Of a DNA stretch of 64,000 nucleotides, positions 3,847 to 46,300 are shown piece by piece. The notes under the pieces are model-generated. The model was given only the letters and a program-made list of their open reading frames with translations, ran no database searches and was not told where the DNA came from. Position 1 is the first letter of the stretch. Each line of letters starts with the position of its first letter. Source of the stretch: an uncultured Clostridia bacterium (GTDB lineage: Bacteria > Bacillota > Clostridia > TANB77 > CAG-508); the NCBI GenBank assembly GCA_944388605.1, contig CALXJJ010000001.1, positions 1 to 64,000 of the forward strand. The letters are read 5' to 3'. Position numbers and translations under genes: made by a program.

Positions 3847-3879
3847 AAAATTTCCACCATCTTAGTTGGTGGAAATTTT
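3847..3879 (-). terminator. Rho-independent terminator after the riboswitch-controlled gene
   Basis: A perfect 13-base stem (AAAATTTCCACCA with TGGTGGAAATTTT, 7-base loop) ends the transcript of the gene at 3,896-4,552 and separates it from the small peptide gene. Confidence 0.8.
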
Positions 3880-3895
3880 ATTCATTTTATTCTTT

Positions 3896-4552
3896 TTATT
3901 CTTTTTCTTTTAAAGTATATTCACTTATATCAGGCTCTATAAATATAGTATCTTCTACATTATCAAATTTATATTCTTTTTCTGTTAGAGTTTGTCTATC
4001 TGTAGATTTAACAAGTAATCCTGTATCTTTTTCTATATATGTTTCTGTATCTTCAGAATTCAAAGATGTTGATGATATAAAGCCTCTTATGCTATAACAC
4101 TCTTTTCCGTTATAATTAACTGATTTTATATTTGAAGTTATACAACCTAAAAATGTTTGCCATCTATTATCTGTTTCTAAACCATTATAAATATTTACAG
4201 ACATAATCGTACCACTATCTAACTCAACTATTTTATTTTCTATATTATCCCAAAATGTATCAGTTCTTTCTCCATTATTATACATTGATATTTTTGATAT
4301 TTCTCCATTTATATTTCTTTCCAAAAATACAACTTGCTTATTATCTTTTTTATAATATTCCATAGTTACAATGTTTTCATTATCTTCTGTTGTGACAGAT
4401 TTTATATAATAATTGGAATTGTTAGAATATTGTGAAATTTTATCTTGTAAACCTGTAACAATAACATAATTTTTAATAGTGTGAATTAGTACAATGATAA
4501 TTAAAATTGCTATTATAATTCCTATTACCTTTAATACTTTTTTTATTTTCAT
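3896..4552 (-). CDS. Membrane-anchored extracytoplasmic protein under c-di-GMP riboswitch control
   Basis: This 218-residue protein has a basic N-terminus and one transmembrane helix (about 8-30, rich in I, V and L). The rest is a soluble beta-rich domain with repeated polar strands (for example EYYKKDNKQVVFLER and DTETYIEKDTGLLVKS). The pattern recalls LolA/LppX-like lipoprotein folds, but I do not recognise a named family. ATG at 4,552 is chosen because it lies 9 bases after GAGGAGG; an upstream TTG at 4,558 is too close. The riboswitch directly upstream implies that expression follows c-di-GMP, as for adhesion or surface proteins in other clostridia. The exact role is unknown. Confidence 0.75.
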   Translation of the reverse strand: MKIKKVLKVIGIIIAILIIIVLIHTIKNYVIVTGLQDKISQYSNNSNYYIKSVTTEDNENIVTMEYYKKDNKQVVFLERNINGEISKISMYNNGERTDTFWDNIENKIVELDSGTIMSVNIYNGLETDNRWQTFLGCITSNIKSVNYNGKECYSIRGFISSTSLNSEDTETYIEKDTGLLVKSTDRQTLTEKEYKFDNVEDTIFIEPDISEYTLKEKE

Positions 4553-4571
4553 ATTCAATTACCTCCTCTTT

Positions 4572-4655
4572 TGTGCAACCTAGCTATCATAAGCATTTAT
4601 GCTTTTAGACCTATGGCTTTGCGTCATAAACTTTCGTTTATTTTGCTCTTTTACA
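4572..4655 (-). promoter_or_regulatory. Cyclic di-GMP-I (GEMM-I) riboswitch
   Basis: Read on the minus strand, the GEMM-I core appears in order. First comes GCAAAA, then a hairpin ATAAAC-GAAA-GTTTAT capped by a GNRA loop. Next is the hallmark GACGCAAAGCC, then the GGTCTAA receptor. A second hairpin AAGCAT...ATGCTT follows, and the 3' strand is GATAGCTAGGTTGC. The aptamer ends only a few bases before the GAGGAGG of the gene at 4,552, with no terminator in between. Control of ribosome access is therefore more likely than attenuation. Known function of the class: binding of cyclic di-GMP. An EAL phosphodiesterase gene is present at 33.7 kb. Confidence 0.88.
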
Positions 4656-4744
4656 ATATTTACATATATTATAGCATATTTTGATATTTTTAGCAAATTT
4701 AACTCAGCAATAAAAGTCCCTATCCATTGTATCACTCTCCTTAT

Positions 4745-5103: not shown

Positions 5104-5901
5104 TTATGAATTATTTTCAAATTTATAATAATATGGTACTACATTCTTATAATAATCTTGAATTAATACATCAGTTCCATCTTTCAATCTTAATTTTAAG
5201 TTAGGATATACCTTTACTATAAATTGCTCATTCCATATTTCATTCATTAATCTTTCAATAGTTTGATTTTTATAAATATTTTTATAAGTTTGTTCATATG
5301 ATTCTTTGTTGCTTACTTCTAAATTGTTTTCCACAACTGTTCTTGCCAAAAATACATGTATAACAAAACCACTAATTAAGAAATCTATTAGTAATAAGAA
5401 TATAAGAATTATAGTTATCACTTTTAATTTTTTTATGCTCATTTTCTGTTTTAGCAATTCTATTAGTCTATTTACCATTGGATTAATTTGCTTCATTAAA
5501 AAAATAGATATAAGTCCCCAATAAATTGAATATAACAAGCATATTCTTCCATCTATATTTAAAAATCTATTTGAATAATCCCACCATCTAACATTAAATA
5601 TAAATTCTCCAATTAAACTAATTACAAATTCCACAACTGATCCAACGACAAAACCTCCAAAAAATAATGTATAGCCATTTTTTTTGAATTTTTGTAATGC
5701 TATTATTAATACTACTGCTCCAACTCCATATATTGGACAAACTGGTCCATATAAAAATCCTTGTCTGCTTTCTAATTTTCCATATACTATTAACGCAAAT
5801 ATTGTTTCTAATACAAAGCCTAAAATACTATAAATGATAAAGTAAGCTAATATTCTATAAATACCTATTCCATTTATATTAAAGTGCTTTTTTTCTTTCA
5901 T
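5104..5901 (-). CDS. CmpB-family (putative ABC-transporter type IV) membrane protein
   Basis: This is a 265-residue membrane protein. The segments FIIYSILGFVLETIF (about 16-30), RQGFLYGPVCPIYGVGAVV (about 48-66), GSVVEFVISLIGEFIF and RWWDYSNRFLNIDGRICL are the conserved blocks of the Pfam family first described as putative ABC-transporter type IV (CmpB). A further hydrophobic segment near 165-185 precedes a polar C-terminal region of about 80 residues that is not part of the usual core. ATG at 5,901 is chosen because AGAAGGA lies 8 bases before it. It sits in the accessory island next to the macro-domain gene. The family's biochemical role is not established. Confidence 0.75.
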   Translation of the reverse strand: MKEKKHFNINGIGIYRILAYFIIYSILGFVLETIFALIVYGKLESRQGFLYGPVCPIYGVGAVVLIIALQKFKKNGYTLFFGGFVVGSVVEFVISLIGEFIFNVRWWDYSNRFLNIDGRICLLYSIYWGLISIFLMKQINPMVNRLIELLKQKMSIKKLKVITIILIFLLLIDFLISGFVIHVFLARTVVENNLEVSNKESYEQTYKNIYKNQTIERLMNEIWNEQFIVKVYPNLKLRLKDGTDVLIQDYYKNVVPYYYKFENNS

Positions 5902-5940
5902 AATCTTCATCCTTCTAATTTTTTCTTTTTAATTCTATAA

Positions 5941-6198
5941 CTATTGATTTTCTAAATAATAATTTGTATCAAATAAAATATAAGACAATTTTTTAATATT
6001 CATATTTTTTAGTCCTACCATAATATCTTTATTTAATGAACTTTTACTACTTATCTCTAGATTTTTCATATAACCTATGGCTGTAAATAACTGTATAATA
6101 AAAGTAATTATTATCATTGATTGTATTAGCACATAATTCTTGAAGATTCCAAAGCTTTCAATATAGCCAAATATTACAGTTATAGAAATTAGCCACAT
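5941..6198 (-). CDS. Small two-helix membrane protein, overlapping the macro-domain gene
   Basis: This 85-codon frame has hydrophobic segments at about 1-14 and 23-44, then a polar tail. It overlaps the end of the macro-domain gene by 41 bases in another frame and has no good ribosome site. It may be translated by coupling, be the displaced C-terminus of its neighbour after a frameshift, or be unused. I do not recognise a family. Confidence 0.4.
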   Translation of the reverse strand: MWLISITVIFGYIESFGIFKNYVLIQSMIIITFIIQLFTAIGYMKNLEISSKSSLNKDIMVGLKNMNIKKLSYILFDTNYYLENQ

Positions 6199-6949
6199 CT
6201 TTATTTTTCCAATTTGTAATTAATGCTGATGTTTTTAGTGACCATATTATTTGTTCTAAAAATTCTTGCTCTGATAAAACTGGATTAATTCTTGAAATTC
6301 CTGTACCAATTATTGGTACATTTATTACCCTTCCATTATGAATACGATTTATTTCATTCCAAAAATCATTTAGAAACTTTAGATATTCTTGCATGGATAA
6401 ATATGCTTCATTTTTATCATTGAATTTTGTCAACGCTGTCAAAATATATTCATTTATATTTATAGTAGTTCCTATTGCATATTTTTTTGTTTTTCCTTCT
6501 AATCTATTTGCATTCTCTTCATATTTGTACCCTGCTAAACATTCTTCTATTTTTGAATTTAAACTTCTTAAATCATTATACTTTAGATATTCTTTCACAT
6601 ACATACCGTGTAAAGAAGTTTGTGATATTATGACATCATCAACTTGTGTATCAAAATATTCATTTACAGGAATTACCTTTATCCCATCCTCTTTGAAAAG
6701 ATTTCCAACTTTTACATTTAAATCTACTTTACCAATCTTTAATTCAATATGATTACAAAAAAATTTATAATAGCAAAAAATTAAAATATAAATTATTATA
6801 AATAGAATTATAAATCCTACTAATATACCTATATTATAATTATTTGGGATACCTGTAATTGCTAGTATAAATCCTGTAATCGTTGATATAATTGAAAATA
6901 TATTCCATTCTGCCTTAATTAAATTAACATCAAGAAATTTTTGTTTCAT
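6158..6949 (-). CDS. Two-helix membrane protein with macro-type domain (ThsA_Macro/DUF6430-like)
   Basis: This 263-residue protein has two transmembrane helices (about 17-34 and 41-65) and then a soluble domain. VIPVNEYFDTQVDDVIIS (about 91-108) followed by SLHG and, near the end, VPIIGTGISRINP recalls the macro-like ADP-ribose-binding domain of Thoeris ThsA effectors. In type II Thoeris such TM-macro proteins respond to a nucleotide signal made by a TIR protein (ThsB). A strong GGAGG precedes the ATG. No TIR gene is visible in the window, so a complete system is not shown. The neighbours are a restriction-modification pair and an integrase, which suits a defence island. Assignment is from motif memory, not a profile search. 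Confidence 0.6.
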   Translation of the reverse strand: MKQKFLDVNLIKAEWNIFSIISTITGFILAITGIPNNYNIGILVGFIILFIIIYILIFCYYKFFCNHIELKIGKVDLNVKVGNLFKEDGIKVIPVNEYFDTQVDDVIISQTSLHGMYVKEYLKYNDLRSLNSKIEECLAGYKYEENANRLEGKTKKYAIGTTININEYILTALTKFNDKNEAYLSMQEYLKFLNDFWNEINRIHNGRVINVPIIGTGISRINPVLSEQEFLEQIIWSLKTSALITNWKNKDVANFYNCNIWLY

Positions 6950-7062: not shown

Positions 7063-8022
7063 CTATTTTATTATCCAATAGCAATTAATTGAAATAATTG
7101 ATGTTGGCATACCTTCGATTTGAATATCAAATTTTAAACTTGGCTCAACAATAGTAGAAGCATTATGTATTCTAAAACTAAATTGCCATCCATTATCTAA
7201 ATATAGTTCAACTTTATTAGTGGTACCTGGTTTTAGTTGTATATCCACTAAACGAGTAGGTAAATTAACTAATGGTATCTTAACTTTGGCTTCCTCTTTT
7301 TTACTGTTTTGATTTAATGTACCTTTCATATTAAATGTTTGTATTTGAGTTAATTTATCACTATCTATACTTATTATTTTATAAAAATCAAATGCACCTA
7401 ATAAATATTCAACCATTCTTTTTGGTAATTCTGGATATTCTTTATATGCCCTTTTTATTTCATCAATAAATGCATTTAATAATGGAACATATACATCTAA
7501 ATCCTTGTTAGGTAAATCTTTCCAAGTTGTTTTCTTATCTTTTTCTTTAGATAGATAATCAAATATTGGTTTAACATCATCCCAATATTGTTTTGAACAC
7601 TTTTTGTCATACCATTTTTCACCAAAATCAAGTGTTTTAGCTAATCTACTATGTTTTACTGCAAAATGATTATGCTTAACGCTAAATCCTATTTCCCATT
7701 TTCTTTCTTTTCTGATTGCAACTATATCTCTTACATCTCCTACTTCTCCCATTACATCAGGTTGTATTAATAATTCTACCTTATCATCATCTTTTTCAAC
7801 AATCATTGGTTCTAAATCAAAAATTGTTTTCACAATAGATTCAGCGCTTGTAATTAAATTAGTTTGTAATGATTTATCAATAGATTTCCAAGCAGTTAAT
7901 GCTGCTTCAAAAGAACTATTCAATACTATTTCTGCATCTCTATATTTTTTAATCTCTTTTTCAAATGTAATTAAACATATATATTCAAAAGCTCTTCCTT
8001 GATTATTGCTTTTATCACTCAT
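7063..8022 (-). CDS. HaeIII-family type II restriction endonuclease
   Basis: This 319-residue protein begins SDKSNNQGRAFEYICL. It carries the conserved block DVRDIVAIRKERKWEIGFS followed by VKHNHFAVKHSRLA (about 120-150), which is the core of the HaeIII restriction enzyme family. The predicted site is GGCC, by analogy and because the partner methylase is very like M.HaeIII. Its ATG directly follows the methylase stop, so the methylase is made first from the same transcript. The last residues (PTSIISINCY onward) lie in the 30-base repeat shared with 4,775-4,804, so the true C-terminus may have been altered by recombination. Confidence 0.85.
   Translation of the reverse strand: MSDKSNNQGRAFEYICLITFEKEIKKYRDAEIVLNSSFEAALTAWKSIDKSLQTNLITSAESIVKTIFDLEPMIVEKDDDKVELLIQPDVMGEVGDVRDIVAIRKERKWEIGFSVKHNHFAVKHSRLAKTLDFGEKWYDKKCSKQYWDDVKPIFDYLSKEKDKKTTWKDLPNKDLDVYVPLLNAFIDEIKRAYKEYPELPKRMVEYLLGAFDFYKIISIDSDKLTQIQTFNMKGTLNQNSKKEEAKVKIPLVNLPTRLVDIQLKPGTTNKVELYLDNGWQFSFRIHNASTIVEPSLKFDIQIEGMPTSIISINCYWIIK
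7078..7107. repeat. 30-base direct repeat, copy 2
   Basis: It matches 4,775-4,804 at 29 of 30 positions. It covers the last codons of the restriction enzyme gene. No similarity continues on either side. Confidence 0.85.
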
Positions 8023-9024
8023 TTAATTTCCCCCATTCTCCAAAGTATTTTTTATCGCTGTAGCTACCTCATAAGCTAAATTAACTGGTACAGCATTTCC
8101 GATCATTTTATATCCAACATCTGTATTTGTATAATCGAACTTGAAAGTATCAGGAAAACCTTGAACTCTAGCCACTTCTCTTACTGTCATCCTTCTATAT
8201 AATTTTTCTTTTCCTTGAACAAACCTGCAATCATTCTTACCAAATTTTATCATTTTAGGTGCTTGAGGATGAAGTTGGCATTGTCTTCCTGAAGCTTGTA
8301 CAGTAAATGCTTGTTCGTTCCATGCTTTTACTCTATTTCTACTCATAAACATAGGAGAATATGCACCAATAAAATATTCATTGTTATTTATAGCATTTGG
8401 ATTATGTTTATTTTTTTCTAATGAGGGTACAGCTGTATATTGTAAATCCCAAATTATATCTTTTAATGTTATTTTATCCTTATCATCGAATGTAGAACCT
8501 TTTGGAAAAGTAAATTTATAATTACTACCTTTTCTAAAGCCAATAAAGAATATCCTTTTTCTTTCTTGCGCCACTCCATAATCTTTTGCGTTAGCCTTAT
8601 ATATTTGAACATCATATCCAGCTTCATCAAATAGTTTTATAATATTATTAACTGCCTCTGAATGTCTATTAGCTAACATGCCATTTACATTTTCTGCTAA
8701 AAAAAATTTTGGTTTTACATATTTCAATATTCTAATATAATCATAAAATAATTTTCCTCTCTCATCATCTATTCCTCTCAGAGAGCCAGCTTCTGACCAA
8801 GATTGACAAGGTGGTCCTCCGATTATTCCATCAACATCATCTGGGAAATCTTCTTCTTTTATATTTCTAATATCGCCTTTTATTAATTTTGTATTTTTAT
8901 GATTAATTTCATATGTTTTCCATATATTCTTATCAAATTCATTTGCAATTGGAATTTCAAATCCAGCTTTTTCAAAGCCTAAATCTAATCCTCCACAACC
9001 ACTAAATAAACTTATTACTTTCAT
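8023..9024 (-). CDS. DNA (cytosine-5) methyltransferase, M.HaeIII-like
   Basis: This 333-residue protein has all C5-methylase motifs. Motif I is [16 protein letters not shown], the catalytic loop is GGPPCQSWS with Cys at about 71, motif VI is FLAENV, motif VIII is [10 protein letters not shown], and [16 protein letters not shown] and [11 protein letters not shown] are near the end. The target recognition part ([31 protein letters not shown]) closely follows M.HaeIII. It therefore probably methylates the internal cytosine of GGCC and protects host DNA from the enzyme encoded next to it. AAGGAAGG precedes the ATG. Similarity to a Haemophilus enzyme points to horizontal spread. Confidence 0.95.
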
Positions 9025-9191: not shown

Positions 9192-10462
9192 CTAGTATGC
9201 TATATCATATTTAATAATGTTGTTTATTAGTTCTGAAGTCATAACCTTATCAAATACTGTTGTAACATCGTTCTTATTTTCAGCTGTACTTGATATATAA
9301 TAATTTTCTGTAGTTTCAATTCTTTTATGTCCTAATATATCAGCAACATCCTTAATTTCAACACCATTTCTTAAACATTTTGTTGCATAACTTCCCCTTA
9401 AATCATAAAATCTACAATTTTTAATTTGTAATTCATGACGTATAATTTTAAATGGATATTTAATAATATCAGTTCCTGCATAACTTCCATTTTTGCGTGT
9501 AAATACCATTTCAACGTTATTTCTATTTTTATATTTACTTTCAATTATCTTATATTCAATTATTTTTCCATATTTATTTTTTATGGGCTCTAATGAATAC
9601 TTTTTATAATTATTACCATATTTTTTCTTGTATAATTGTTGTTGTTTTTTGTAATTGCATAATGCTTTATATAAGGTATCACAAATATAAACTTCTCTAC
9701 AACTTCCTTCAGTTTTAGCTGTTCCTAAAAACCATCTTCCTTTTTCATCTTTTAATTTTGAATATACAGTTTTATTTATCATTATTAACCTATTTTTTAA
9801 ATCAATATCATTCCAGGTTAGAGCAAATACTTCTCCTGTTCTCATTCCTGTATAACATGCTGTTAAAAATGCACAAGTAAATGTTGTATTGTTTTGAAAT
9901 CTTAATAATATTCTTTCAATTTCTTCTTTCGTATAAATATGTTTTGTTCTGTTTTTTTTAACTCAAATGATAAAACTCTTGGAATTTGCAAATTTCCTGC
10001 TGGATTACCTTCAATAAATCCAAAATAGTTTGCAGCATCTCTTAATGAACTTTTTATAACTTTTTGATAATTTCTCAAAGATTCTTTATTACCTGTTTTT
10101 TGATATAATTTTAATAGTGCTTGATTTAGTAGATATGGTGTAATATTGCAAATTCTATACTTTCCAAGTATTTTCTTTATTGCATCAAATGATTCTCTAT
10201 ATCTTTTAGCAGTTGAATATTTATAGTTTATTTCAAAATATTCTTTCATCCAATAATCTAAATAGTCTGAATATGACATTTGAGCTTCTACTTTATTTTT
10301 TCCATTAATATATTCATCATAAGCTTTCATTCCTGCTAAATATGCTTCATTTTTTGTTCTAAATCCAGATTTTGAAATTCTAGTCCTCTTGTTGTTTATT
10401 TTTGCTCCTTCGAAAAAGTATTCATATACCTTTCCCCTTTTTCTTACATTAATTTTCCTCAT
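9192..10462 (-). pseudogene. Tyrosine site-specific integrase, split by a frameshift
   Basis: The N-terminal piece (9,902-10,462) holds an AP2-like arm-binding start (VRKRGKVYEYFFEGAKI) and a core-binding domain. The C-terminal piece (to 9,192) holds the catalytic domain: TGMRTGEVFAL (first Arg), YDLRGSYATKCLRNGV (second Arg), ILGHKRIETTENYY (His and the tyrosine nucleophile). The frames meet at a run of eight A near 9,961. Adding one A restores KKNRTKHIYTKEEIERIL, the normal sequence before the catalytic domain. Length would be about 420 residues, like Tn916-type integrases. The HxxR histidine is replaced by Tyr, common in this branch. It would have mobilised the island. A miscalled homopolymer is possible. 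Confidence 0.85.
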
Positions 10463-33713: not shown

Positions 33714-35075
33714 TCAATAGTTTTTTAGAAATTTATCAATATATTTTTTTAACTCATCTTTTGGCAATGGTTTAGAATAATAATATCCTTGTACTATATC
33801 ACATCCAATATCTTTTAAATAATCTATTTGCATTTTATTTTCAACTCCCTCTGCTACAGTTTTTAAATTTAAATCTTTTGCCATATAAATTATATAATTT
33901 ACTAAATTATTTTCTTCTTTTTTTATACAATCTATAAATTTTTTATCTATTTTTATAGTATCAATTTTCATATCTAATAACATATTAAAAGAAGAATAAC
34001 CAGTTCCAAAATCATCTATTGATATTCTAAAACCTTTTTCTTTTATTTTACCAATTACATAACTAATATCTATTGTTTCATCCAATGCTACACTTTCTGT
34101 TATCTCTAATTCTATATTGTTTGTATTAATTTCATATTTATTTGCAATTCTTACATATTCTGATATAAAATTTTCAACATAAAAATTCTCTTTTGAAACA
34201 TTAATAGATATAATAGGTAATTTTTTATAATATTTTTTTAATTCTTTTAATAATTTGCAAACTTCTTCATATACATATATATCTATTTTCTTTATAAAAC
34301 CATTTTTCTCAAATACAGGAATAAAAGTATTTGGTTTTATTATTTTACCATCATCACTCCACCTTATTAGTGCTTCTGCTTCAATATTAATATTATCTTT
34401 TAATGGAATTTTGGGTTGGTAGTAAACAATAAATTCATTATTATTTAGTGCTTTTTCCATTTTGCTTTCTATTTCATGTTCTTCCAATAATCTTTTTTCC
34501 ATTTTCTCGTTATAAATATTGTAATTTTTATTGTAATTAAATTTAATATTATCATGAGCAATTAAAGCCTTATCTATAGATTCTTTTATACTAATATTAT
34601 CATTTGAAACTTTATATATTCCAATTGTACTATACACATTATAGGTTTTTTCTTCTATTTTAATATTTTTTAAACTATCTTGAATATTTTCAATGAGTTT
34701 TTCTATATCTTGCACATGATTTATTAAAAGTCCAAATACATCATTTGAAAATCTACATACCATATCATTCATATTCAATATCTTTTTTACTTTTTGACCT
34801 ACATTTTTTAAAATTTTATCTCCTATTTCATATCCATATTTTCGATTAAATGTTTTAAATTTATTTATATCTAATATTATTATATAAGTTCCATGTTTAA
34901 TTAATTTTTCTCCTTCTTTGCAAAAAAAGTAATAATTTCCCAAATTAGTAATTGCATCTATGTATGCTAATTTGTACAACTTATTTTTTTGATTTTCATT
35001 AAAAATTGTAATACACAGATACAATATAAAAATTATTAAAGTTATAATAAAAATTTCCACAATATCATCCCTCAT
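33714..35075 (-). CDS. Membrane-bound GGDEF-EAL protein, probable c-di-GMP phosphodiesterase
   Basis: The 453 residues comprise one membrane helix (about 5-25), a GGDEF domain (about 35-185) and an EAL domain (about 200-450). The GGDEF signature is degenerate (RFSNDVFG at the GGDEF site), so cyclase activity is unlikely. The EAL domain keeps its key parts: EALIRW, SINVS, LEITES, IDDFGTGYSS, IKIDKKFI, AEGVE and QGYYYSKPLP. It should hydrolyse cyclic di-GMP at the membrane. The GEMM-I riboswitch at 4.6 kb would respond to the same molecule. It follows the SPL-like gene by 24 bases. Confidence 0.92.
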   Translation of the reverse strand: MRDDIVEIFIITLIIFILYLCITIFNENQKNKLYKLAYIDAITNLGNYYFFCKEGEKLIKHGTYIIILDINKFKTFNRKYGYEIGDKILKNVGQKVKKILNMNDMVCRFSNDVFGLLINHVQDIEKLIENIQDSLKNIKIEEKTYNVYSTIGIYKVSNDNISIKESIDKALIAHDNIKFNYNKNYNIYNEKMEKRLLEEHEIESKMEKALNNNEFIVYYQPKIPLKDNINIEAEALIRWSDDGKIIKPNTFIPVFEKNGFIKKIDIYVYEEVCKLLKELKKYYKKLPIISINVSKENFYVENFISEYVRIANKYEINTNNIELEITESVALDETIDISYVIGKIKEKGFRISIDDFGTGYSSFNMLLDMKIDTIKIDKKFIDCIKKEENNLVNYIIYMAKDLNLKTVAEGVENKMQIDYLKDIGCDIVQGYYYSKPLPKDELKKYIDKFLKNY

Positions 35076-46046: not shown

Positions 46047-46300
46047 TTGAAAATGAGCTAATCCATCCTAAATAAATTATTAGGACGAACTAGCTCTAAA
46101 TCCGCGGTACCACCTATTTTAAAAGTATTACTTTTCACTTAATTATTCTTTAACGCAGAACTACGATTAAACTTACTTTTCTTTTCAGTTTAACAACTCC
46201 AAGGTGATAATAAATAATTTTCACTTACTAACATTCCACCAAATAGTTAGTTCTCTAATAGCTTCCACTATTTACTGTATCCTTATCTTAGTTTTTTATT
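46047..46300 (-). promoter_or_regulatory. T-box riboswitch leader (isoleucine) of DUF1653-ileS
   Basis: The T-box core AGGTGGTACCGCGGA lies at 46,101-46,115 on the minus strand, between stem III and a terminator. The terminator stem is GAGCTA...TCCTAA with TTAGGA...TAGCTC at about 46,053-46,096. Stem I begins near 46,280 (AAGGATACAG) and closes with ATCACCTT. An ATC at 46,206-46,208 is the likely specifier codon, matching isoleucine. Uncharged tRNA-Ile would favour antitermination and raise synthetase expression. Confidence 0.93.

Follow-up and report, generated by a model that had tools for sequence, protein, structure and literature searches.

A c-di-GMP-I-class aptamer upstream of a predicted LolA-fold protein akin to ECF anti-sigma factors in uncultured gut Clostridia

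The riboswitch and the gene that follows it

The DNA analysed here, hereafter the window, is a stretch of 64,000 nucleotides from an uncultured Clostridia bacterium. On its minus strand a c-di-GMP-I (GEMM-I) riboswitch aptamer (4571..4657) precedes a single gene for a putatively riboswitch-controlled protein of 218 aa (3899..4552, ATG at 4552, stop codon at 3896-3898). Directly 5' of the aptamer lies a promoter-like site (4668..4696, minus strand), in which a -35 box TTGCTA (4696-4691) and a -10 box TATAAT (4673-4668) are separated by a 17-nt spacer; with 10/12 matches it is the best of the region, and of 51 distinct upstream regions from related loci, 50 have a TATAAT-like box at the equivalent place. 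The Shine-Dalgarno (SD) sequence GAGGAGG (4562..4568, minus strand) is predicted to be open. A hairpin 3' of the gene (3847..3879), which meets the criterion of the prediction tool on the plus strand only, is a likely transcription terminator.

The presence of a complete GEMM-I aptamer, proposed in an earlier note made from the sequence alone, was borne out by cmscan: the match (4657-4571, minus strand) runs over positions 1-87 of the RF01051 model and scores 82.7 bits (E 9e-15) against a gathering score of 35 bits. The span given in that note, 4552-4655, does cover the stretch from aptamer to start codon, but its coordinates are slightly shifted relative to the aptamer proper. A whole-genome search of the 1.31-Mb window genome returned this aptamer as its single RF01051 match. 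Pairing within the Rfam helices reaches 99.2% over 23 aptamers of related loci; 7 pairs show two-sided change, and the count of cells altered on both sides is 44, compared with 14.7 in shuffles. Counting by hand from the model positions, and following Vc2 numbering, we take 4646 and 4575 to be the equivalents of G20 and C92; both residues are present in 23/23 aptamers examined. Like other RF01051 riboswitches, the window aptamer combines a full-length fold with G20 and C92, covarying P2/P3 helices and a GAAA loop. It belongs, judging by sequence and covariation, to the known c-di-GMP-I class, and c-di-GMP binding is predicted. We rejected a cGAMP-type GEMM because position 20 is G, not A, in every aptamer inspected, and it is a G20A change that accompanies cGAMP binding (PMC6274999).

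One respect in which the group is unlike other RF01051 riboswitches is its P1 helix. Inspection of sequences and folds, in the window and its relatives, revealed no complementary strands around G20 and C92, and neither A93 nor C93 has a 5' partner, hence the ligand pair would mark the limit of any possible P1. This does not affect class membership, as P1 is absent from the Rfam consensus structure and RF01051 does not need it. A search for c-di-GMP-II riboswitches yielded none in 13 genomes, yet the same search picked up no control either.

The protein itself matched no Pfam or NCBIfam family, in agreement with the earlier description of an N-terminally anchored 218-residue protein of unrecognised family, and a sequence search of solved structures gave nothing useful. 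None of 33 family members matched, by sequence, a described LolA-type family in Pfam or NCBIfam. An AlphaFold model built from 33 homologs (pLDDT 93.7) comprises a long N-terminal helix (residues 3-43, the first part hydrophobic) followed by an antiparallel sheet and two short helices. Its top structural matches are a Thermus protein (2yzy, Z 12.5) and a LolA-type protein from Bacteroides (4mxt, Z 12.0), followed by LprF and LprG (Z about 10) and RseB (Z 9.7), while Foldseek pointed to Rickettsia LolA (E 1.4e-5). A comparison with LolA-like folds, which the earlier note had put forward, was therefore fruitful: according to the model, the window protein is a LolA-type half-barrel on one membrane helix. 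A fold common to LolA, LprG and RseB is nevertheless no proof of function.

Conservation of the pairing and its expression platforms

Our searches for relatives covered families of the same order, and aptamers were counted in two of these (f1 and f4). Three of the 27 aptamers found there reach contig ends; of the 24 that can be assessed, 19 stand in front of a homolog of the window protein (all 5 in f4 and 14/19 in f1). The remaining five are followed by a 362-aa protein whose N-terminus is similar (two cases), a 59-aa ORF (one) or secreted-looking genes (two, in G098). Within the family of the window genome, 20 of 243 genomes carry the aptamer, and the window copy is the top-scoring one. Searching from the protein side produced 74 homolog loci; every title names an uncultured Clostridia or Clostridiales MAG, and many name an animal gut site. 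Scanning these with a covariance model trained on the 23 aptamers placed an aptamer directly 5' of the homolog at 39 loci, and one more strong match appeared in front of a 362-aa gene (L131). Aptamer and LolA-fold gene have stayed together in part of two families of uncultured gut Clostridia.

This distribution can be followed on a tree of 87 homologs, where the aptamer label needs 13 changes compared with 29 in shuffles, suggesting that the aptamer is inherited and sometimes lost. Losses can be seen in various stages: degraded aptamers at L093 (2895-2984, 29 bits) and L107 (1034-1123, 20.8 bits), a remnant at L112 and a deletion at L091. Gene and ribosome site persist in all four despite the decay or deletion, which argues that the switch is dispensable. 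We found no conserved gene neighbourhood, the cassette sitting in varied contexts. Upstream of the window switch is a gene for a PF06541 (CmpB-type) membrane protein (5104-5910, minus strand), and among sister loci such a gene recurs beside the switch in L080 only.

Aptamers of this class were also seen with other genes. Another kind of protein (362 aa, with a weak match to DUF5643) has the same aptamer and a CCUUC platform in L058, L059 and L131; its structural model is of middling quality (pLDDT 72), and the best match to it, Bacillus anthracis 3fbq, was followed by antibody chains and discarded. A literature search for DUF5643 returned no paper. Further c-di-GMP-I aptamers occur at L063 and L073 (G098) and at L037, L045, L049, L051 and L053 (sister family f2), several of them before terminator-like hairpins and secreted-looking or repeat-rich proteins. 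For most f2 aptamers, terminator-like hairpins and other genes come next, which is the usual design.

The window cassette is built differently from other RF01051 riboswitches. A scan of the window found no terminator-like site between the aptamer and the ATG, as had been stated before, and control would thus be expected at the ribosome site or through mRNA stability, not by attenuation. The SD begins 7 nt past C92 (its core GGAGG 9 nt past) and the start codon lies 23 nt past it. Over 48 distinct leaders we could distinguish three platform designs. In the first (13 leaders), C92 opens a CCUUC arm (CCUUU in one) that pairs with the SD core GGAGG; emulated ligand capture raises the mean predicted SD accessibility from 0.02 to 0.26, the emulation being a crude folding constraint that ignores tertiary structure and coaxial stacking. 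The second (5 leaders, all f4) pairs CAC(AC)U with AGUG(UG), and here the emulation alters little. The third (30 leaders, including the window) has no strong pairing arm; its SD is predicted to be largely accessible (mean 0.78), with the start codon 19-26 nt past C92. Pairing between cognate arm and SD is stronger than permuted pairing (p 2e-4). Some folds also placed the 5' leader against the start codon, a candidate that we dropped as cognate pairing was no better than permuted (p 0.24).

What do these designs imply for the direction of control? The anti-SD arm of the 13 loci would be consistent with an ON switch, in which c-di-GMP captures C92, frees the SD and lets the protein accumulate at high c-di-GMP; this would be compatible with the link to anti-sigma factors discussed below, and we regard it as a serious contender, if somewhat short of an even chance. 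On the other hand, the anti-SD hairpin is missing from the window copy and from 29 further distinct loci, the CACAC/AGUGUG subclass hardly responds to emulation, and 11 of 12 c-di-GMP-I switches in C. difficile are OFF switches, though they act by termination (PMC3649979). For the window copy in particular, folding predicts an SD accessibility of 0.91 without and 0.94 with emulated ligand. As the SD is predicted to be open either way, its sequestration is not supported there, and the translational control suggested in the earlier note, while it fits the missing terminator and the anti-SD hairpins of 13 sister loci, finds no such hairpin to act through in the window. Since the SD is predicted to be open without ligand, we lean weakly, at little better than even odds, towards an OFF switch for this copy, with the ligand-bound aptamer occluding the 30S site and lowering synthesis at high c-di-GMP.

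Kinship with zf-HC2 anti-sigma factors

A clue to the role of the protein comes from its aptamer-less homologs, many of which carry about 65-90 extra N-terminal residues. In all five that were tested the extension is a zf-HC2 zinc finger (E 1e-6 to 9e-9). Among 21 zf-HC2-bearing, aptamer-less homologs, 20 sit directly after an ECF-sigma-type ORF, mostly a few bp apart or overlapping; Sigma70_r2/r4 matches were confirmed for four sigma ORFs, taken from aptamer loci, and the remainder were assigned by similarity. Against one such anti-sigma factor (L117) the window protein aligns, along the sensor half, at 38% identity over 198 residues (E 7e-42). Aptamer and zinc finger, the latter being the sigma-binding domain, are mutually exclusive: the finger occurs in 0/46 aptamer-linked homologs and in 21/41 aptamer-less ones (Fisher p 4e-9, uncorrected for relatedness), the other 20 aptamer-less homologs being likewise without it. 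Judging from these alignments, the window protein is equivalent to a zf-HC2 ECF anti-sigma factor reduced to its membrane and sensor parts, with no zinc finger, a relationship that the earlier note missed. Such kinship would indicate regulation rather than surface structure.

The two systems also meet on the chromosome, if in few cases. Of 50 distinct aptamer loci, 5 have a sigma/zf-HC2 pair in the flanking sequence that was fetched, a small count. In L043 and L101 the order is sigma, zf-HC2 anti-sigma, aptamer and LolA-fold gene; in L099 the pair is downstream of the cassette; in L077 it is upstream with one gene between; and in L131 the aptamer and its 362-aa protein are followed by a sigma gene and then by a zf-HC2-LolA fusion. 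The 151 kb of other fetched sequence contained no such pair, although this comparison has no matched null, and there is none within the window. This mix, fused in certain genomes and adjacent in others, suggests, by analogy with RseB/MucB and RseA/MucA, that zf-HC2 anti-sigma factors are the working partners of the LolA-fold protein.

The analogy has its limits. As in rpoE-rseA-rseB, the gene in L043 and L101 comes just after a sigma factor and a zinc-finger anti-sigma factor, and the predicted LolA-type fold is shared. RseB, however, docks onto RseA with its C-terminal domain, whereas the window protein ends with its LolA-type domain, lacks the C-terminal anti-sigma-binding domain of RseB/MucB and is anchored by a membrane helix. 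Furthermore, it has no sequence match to them, is found in Clostridia, and its gene has its own promoter and riboswitch and no adjoining sigma/anti-sigma genes. With zf-HC2 (ZAS) anti-sigma factors such as those of L117 and L126 it shares a homologous membrane helix and extracytoplasmic domain, but in place of the zinc finger and adjacent sigma gene it has the riboswitch. A c-di-GMP-I aptamer upstream of a sigma-factor pathway is also known from the C. difficile flgB switch, whose operon holds sigD; that switch, by contrast, is terminator-based and controls a flagellar operon, not an anti-sigma sensor domain (PMC3649979).

A possible route from c-di-GMP to ECF sigma signalling

Taking these observations together, we can sketch how the cassette might operate. 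Binding of c-di-GMP would alter ribosome access, or mRNA stability, and with it the amount of sensor-only protein; in sister loci the 3' strand of the aptamer from C92 would serve as anti-SD, while in the window copy the SD merely abuts the aptamer. The LolA-type domain of RseB/MucB shields the anti-sigma factor and releases it on lipid binding (PMC7400510). In a comparable manner, the sensor-only protein could tune an ECF sigma pathway either as a co-inhibitor of anti-sigma proteolysis or as a decoy competing for the signal; how sensitively an envelope-stress sigma response reacts would then be set by c-di-GMP. That c-di-GMP controls, at translation, how much is made of a protein that partners ECF anti-sigma factors in the manner of RseB, or acts as their decoy, seems to us to fall just below an even chance. 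The wider claim, that c-di-GMP riboswitches meter a sensor-only anti-sigma derivative and so bring an ECF sigma pathway under second-messenger control at the RNA level, is put forward more tentatively. Beyond the limits already given, several points weigh against the proposal as a whole: folding predicts no secondary-structure switch in the window subclass, 20 aptamer-less homologs lack the zinc finger too, sister genes that have lost the aptamer show the switch to be dispensable, and c-di-GMP synthesis would depend on an order-wide GGDDF protein that is a putative synthase.

A different function would follow if the protein were an envelope lipid or glycolipid carrier in the manner of LprG or LppX, c-di-GMP adjusting envelope composition and the anti-sigma link reflecting shared sensor-domain ancestry only. 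LprG and LprF are among the top structural matches, LolA, LprG and EPDR1 bind lipids with the same fold, and the window gene has no sigma factor nearby. We nevertheless consider this unlikely: many relatives of the same family are zf-HC2-fused and reside in sigma-factor operons, cassettes adjoining sigma/anti-sigma pairs recur, and the compared loci have no conserved transporter or lipid-synthesis neighbour. The mycobacterial lipoproteins LprG, LprF and LppX differ from the window protein in gene context and in having a lipobox instead of a membrane helix, and have no sequence match to it. It is more improbable still that the aptamer is a relic that folds yet controls nothing in the window genome. 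The decayed and deleted copies at four sister loci, the small share of genomes carrying the aptamer and the missing predicted switch would fit such a relic, but the window aptamer is the best-scoring of its family, with an intact invariant core and covarying helices, which a relic would lose first. Least probable of all, by our estimate, is the adhesion or biofilm factor proposed in the earlier note: c-di-GMP commonly controls adhesion and f2 switches precede secreted-looking genes, but the modelled protein is a single LolA-type domain set straight on a membrane helix, without repeats, LPxTG, an adhesin or surface-anchor match in Pfam (a missing match does not exclude an adhesin) or an adhesin fold among the best structural matches.

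The analysis also covered enzymes that may make and degrade c-di-GMP. The sole EAL-domain protein of the genome lies within the window (33714..35075, minus strand) and is a probable c-di-GMP phosphodiesterase, with intact EAL motifs and a degenerate GGDEF (SNDVF). The window genome also encodes a protein with receiver-like and GGDEF domains (GGDDF motif), a GdpP-like protein and another GGDEF protein, itself degenerate. The GGDDF motif is kept in the relatives that were read, and this order-wide protein is a possible c-di-GMP synthase with a variant motif. A receiver-like GGDEF protein of this kind (L033:1114-2040, motif GHIGGDDF, with HV or DY in some) is found in most genomes of the order; in L033 a PF06541 gene (307-1110) lies directly 5' of it. 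The idea of an EAL protein as obligatory partner was abandoned, as five cassette-bearing genomes lack one; all five have HD_5 (HD-GYP-type) matches. There are two HD_5 matches in the window genome, and HD-GYP motifs were read in four relatives. As for receptors, PilZ was not found in 92 of the 95 genomes searched, including the window genome and five cassette-bearing relatives, and was detected in three f2 genomes only. In the window genome and those five relatives the switch may thus be a main c-di-GMP output.

Overall, we describe a riboswitch of known class whose platform is unusual, upstream of an undescribed target family that likely acts in sigma-factor signalling. The literature that we searched contained no report of this gene family as target of a c-di-GMP-I switch, no paper on a c-di-GMP riboswitch with LolA, and no riboswitch link between c-di-GMP and ECF sigma signalling. 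If true, our reading would join two bacterial signalling systems in a way not known before, through a cassette that recurs in gut Clostridia with genomes of 1-2 Mb. The same aptamer also stands before another, unrelated type of sensor (L058, L059, L131), which would then make this a general arrangement. The order-wide GGDDF protein would gain a first testable role as c-di-GMP source. Furthermore, leaders with differing platforms before one gene family form a natural set that should be useful for studying translation control by a P1-less aptamer.

The window also holds features of separate interest. Upstream of the riboswitch gene are a Thoeris ThsA-type macro-domain protein with N-terminal hydrophobic stretches (6158-6949, minus strand; PF20016 E 2.5e-52, PADLOC ThsA E 7e-75) and a HaeIII-type restriction endonuclease (E 3e-133) with a C5 cytosine methylase (E 3e-103; together 7063-9024, minus strand). 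Integrase pieces (9192-10462) adjoin the restriction-modification genes, giving this group the look of a small defence/mobile island. Finally, a T-box leader (RF00230, 114.5 bits) is found at 46078-46298 on the minus strand.
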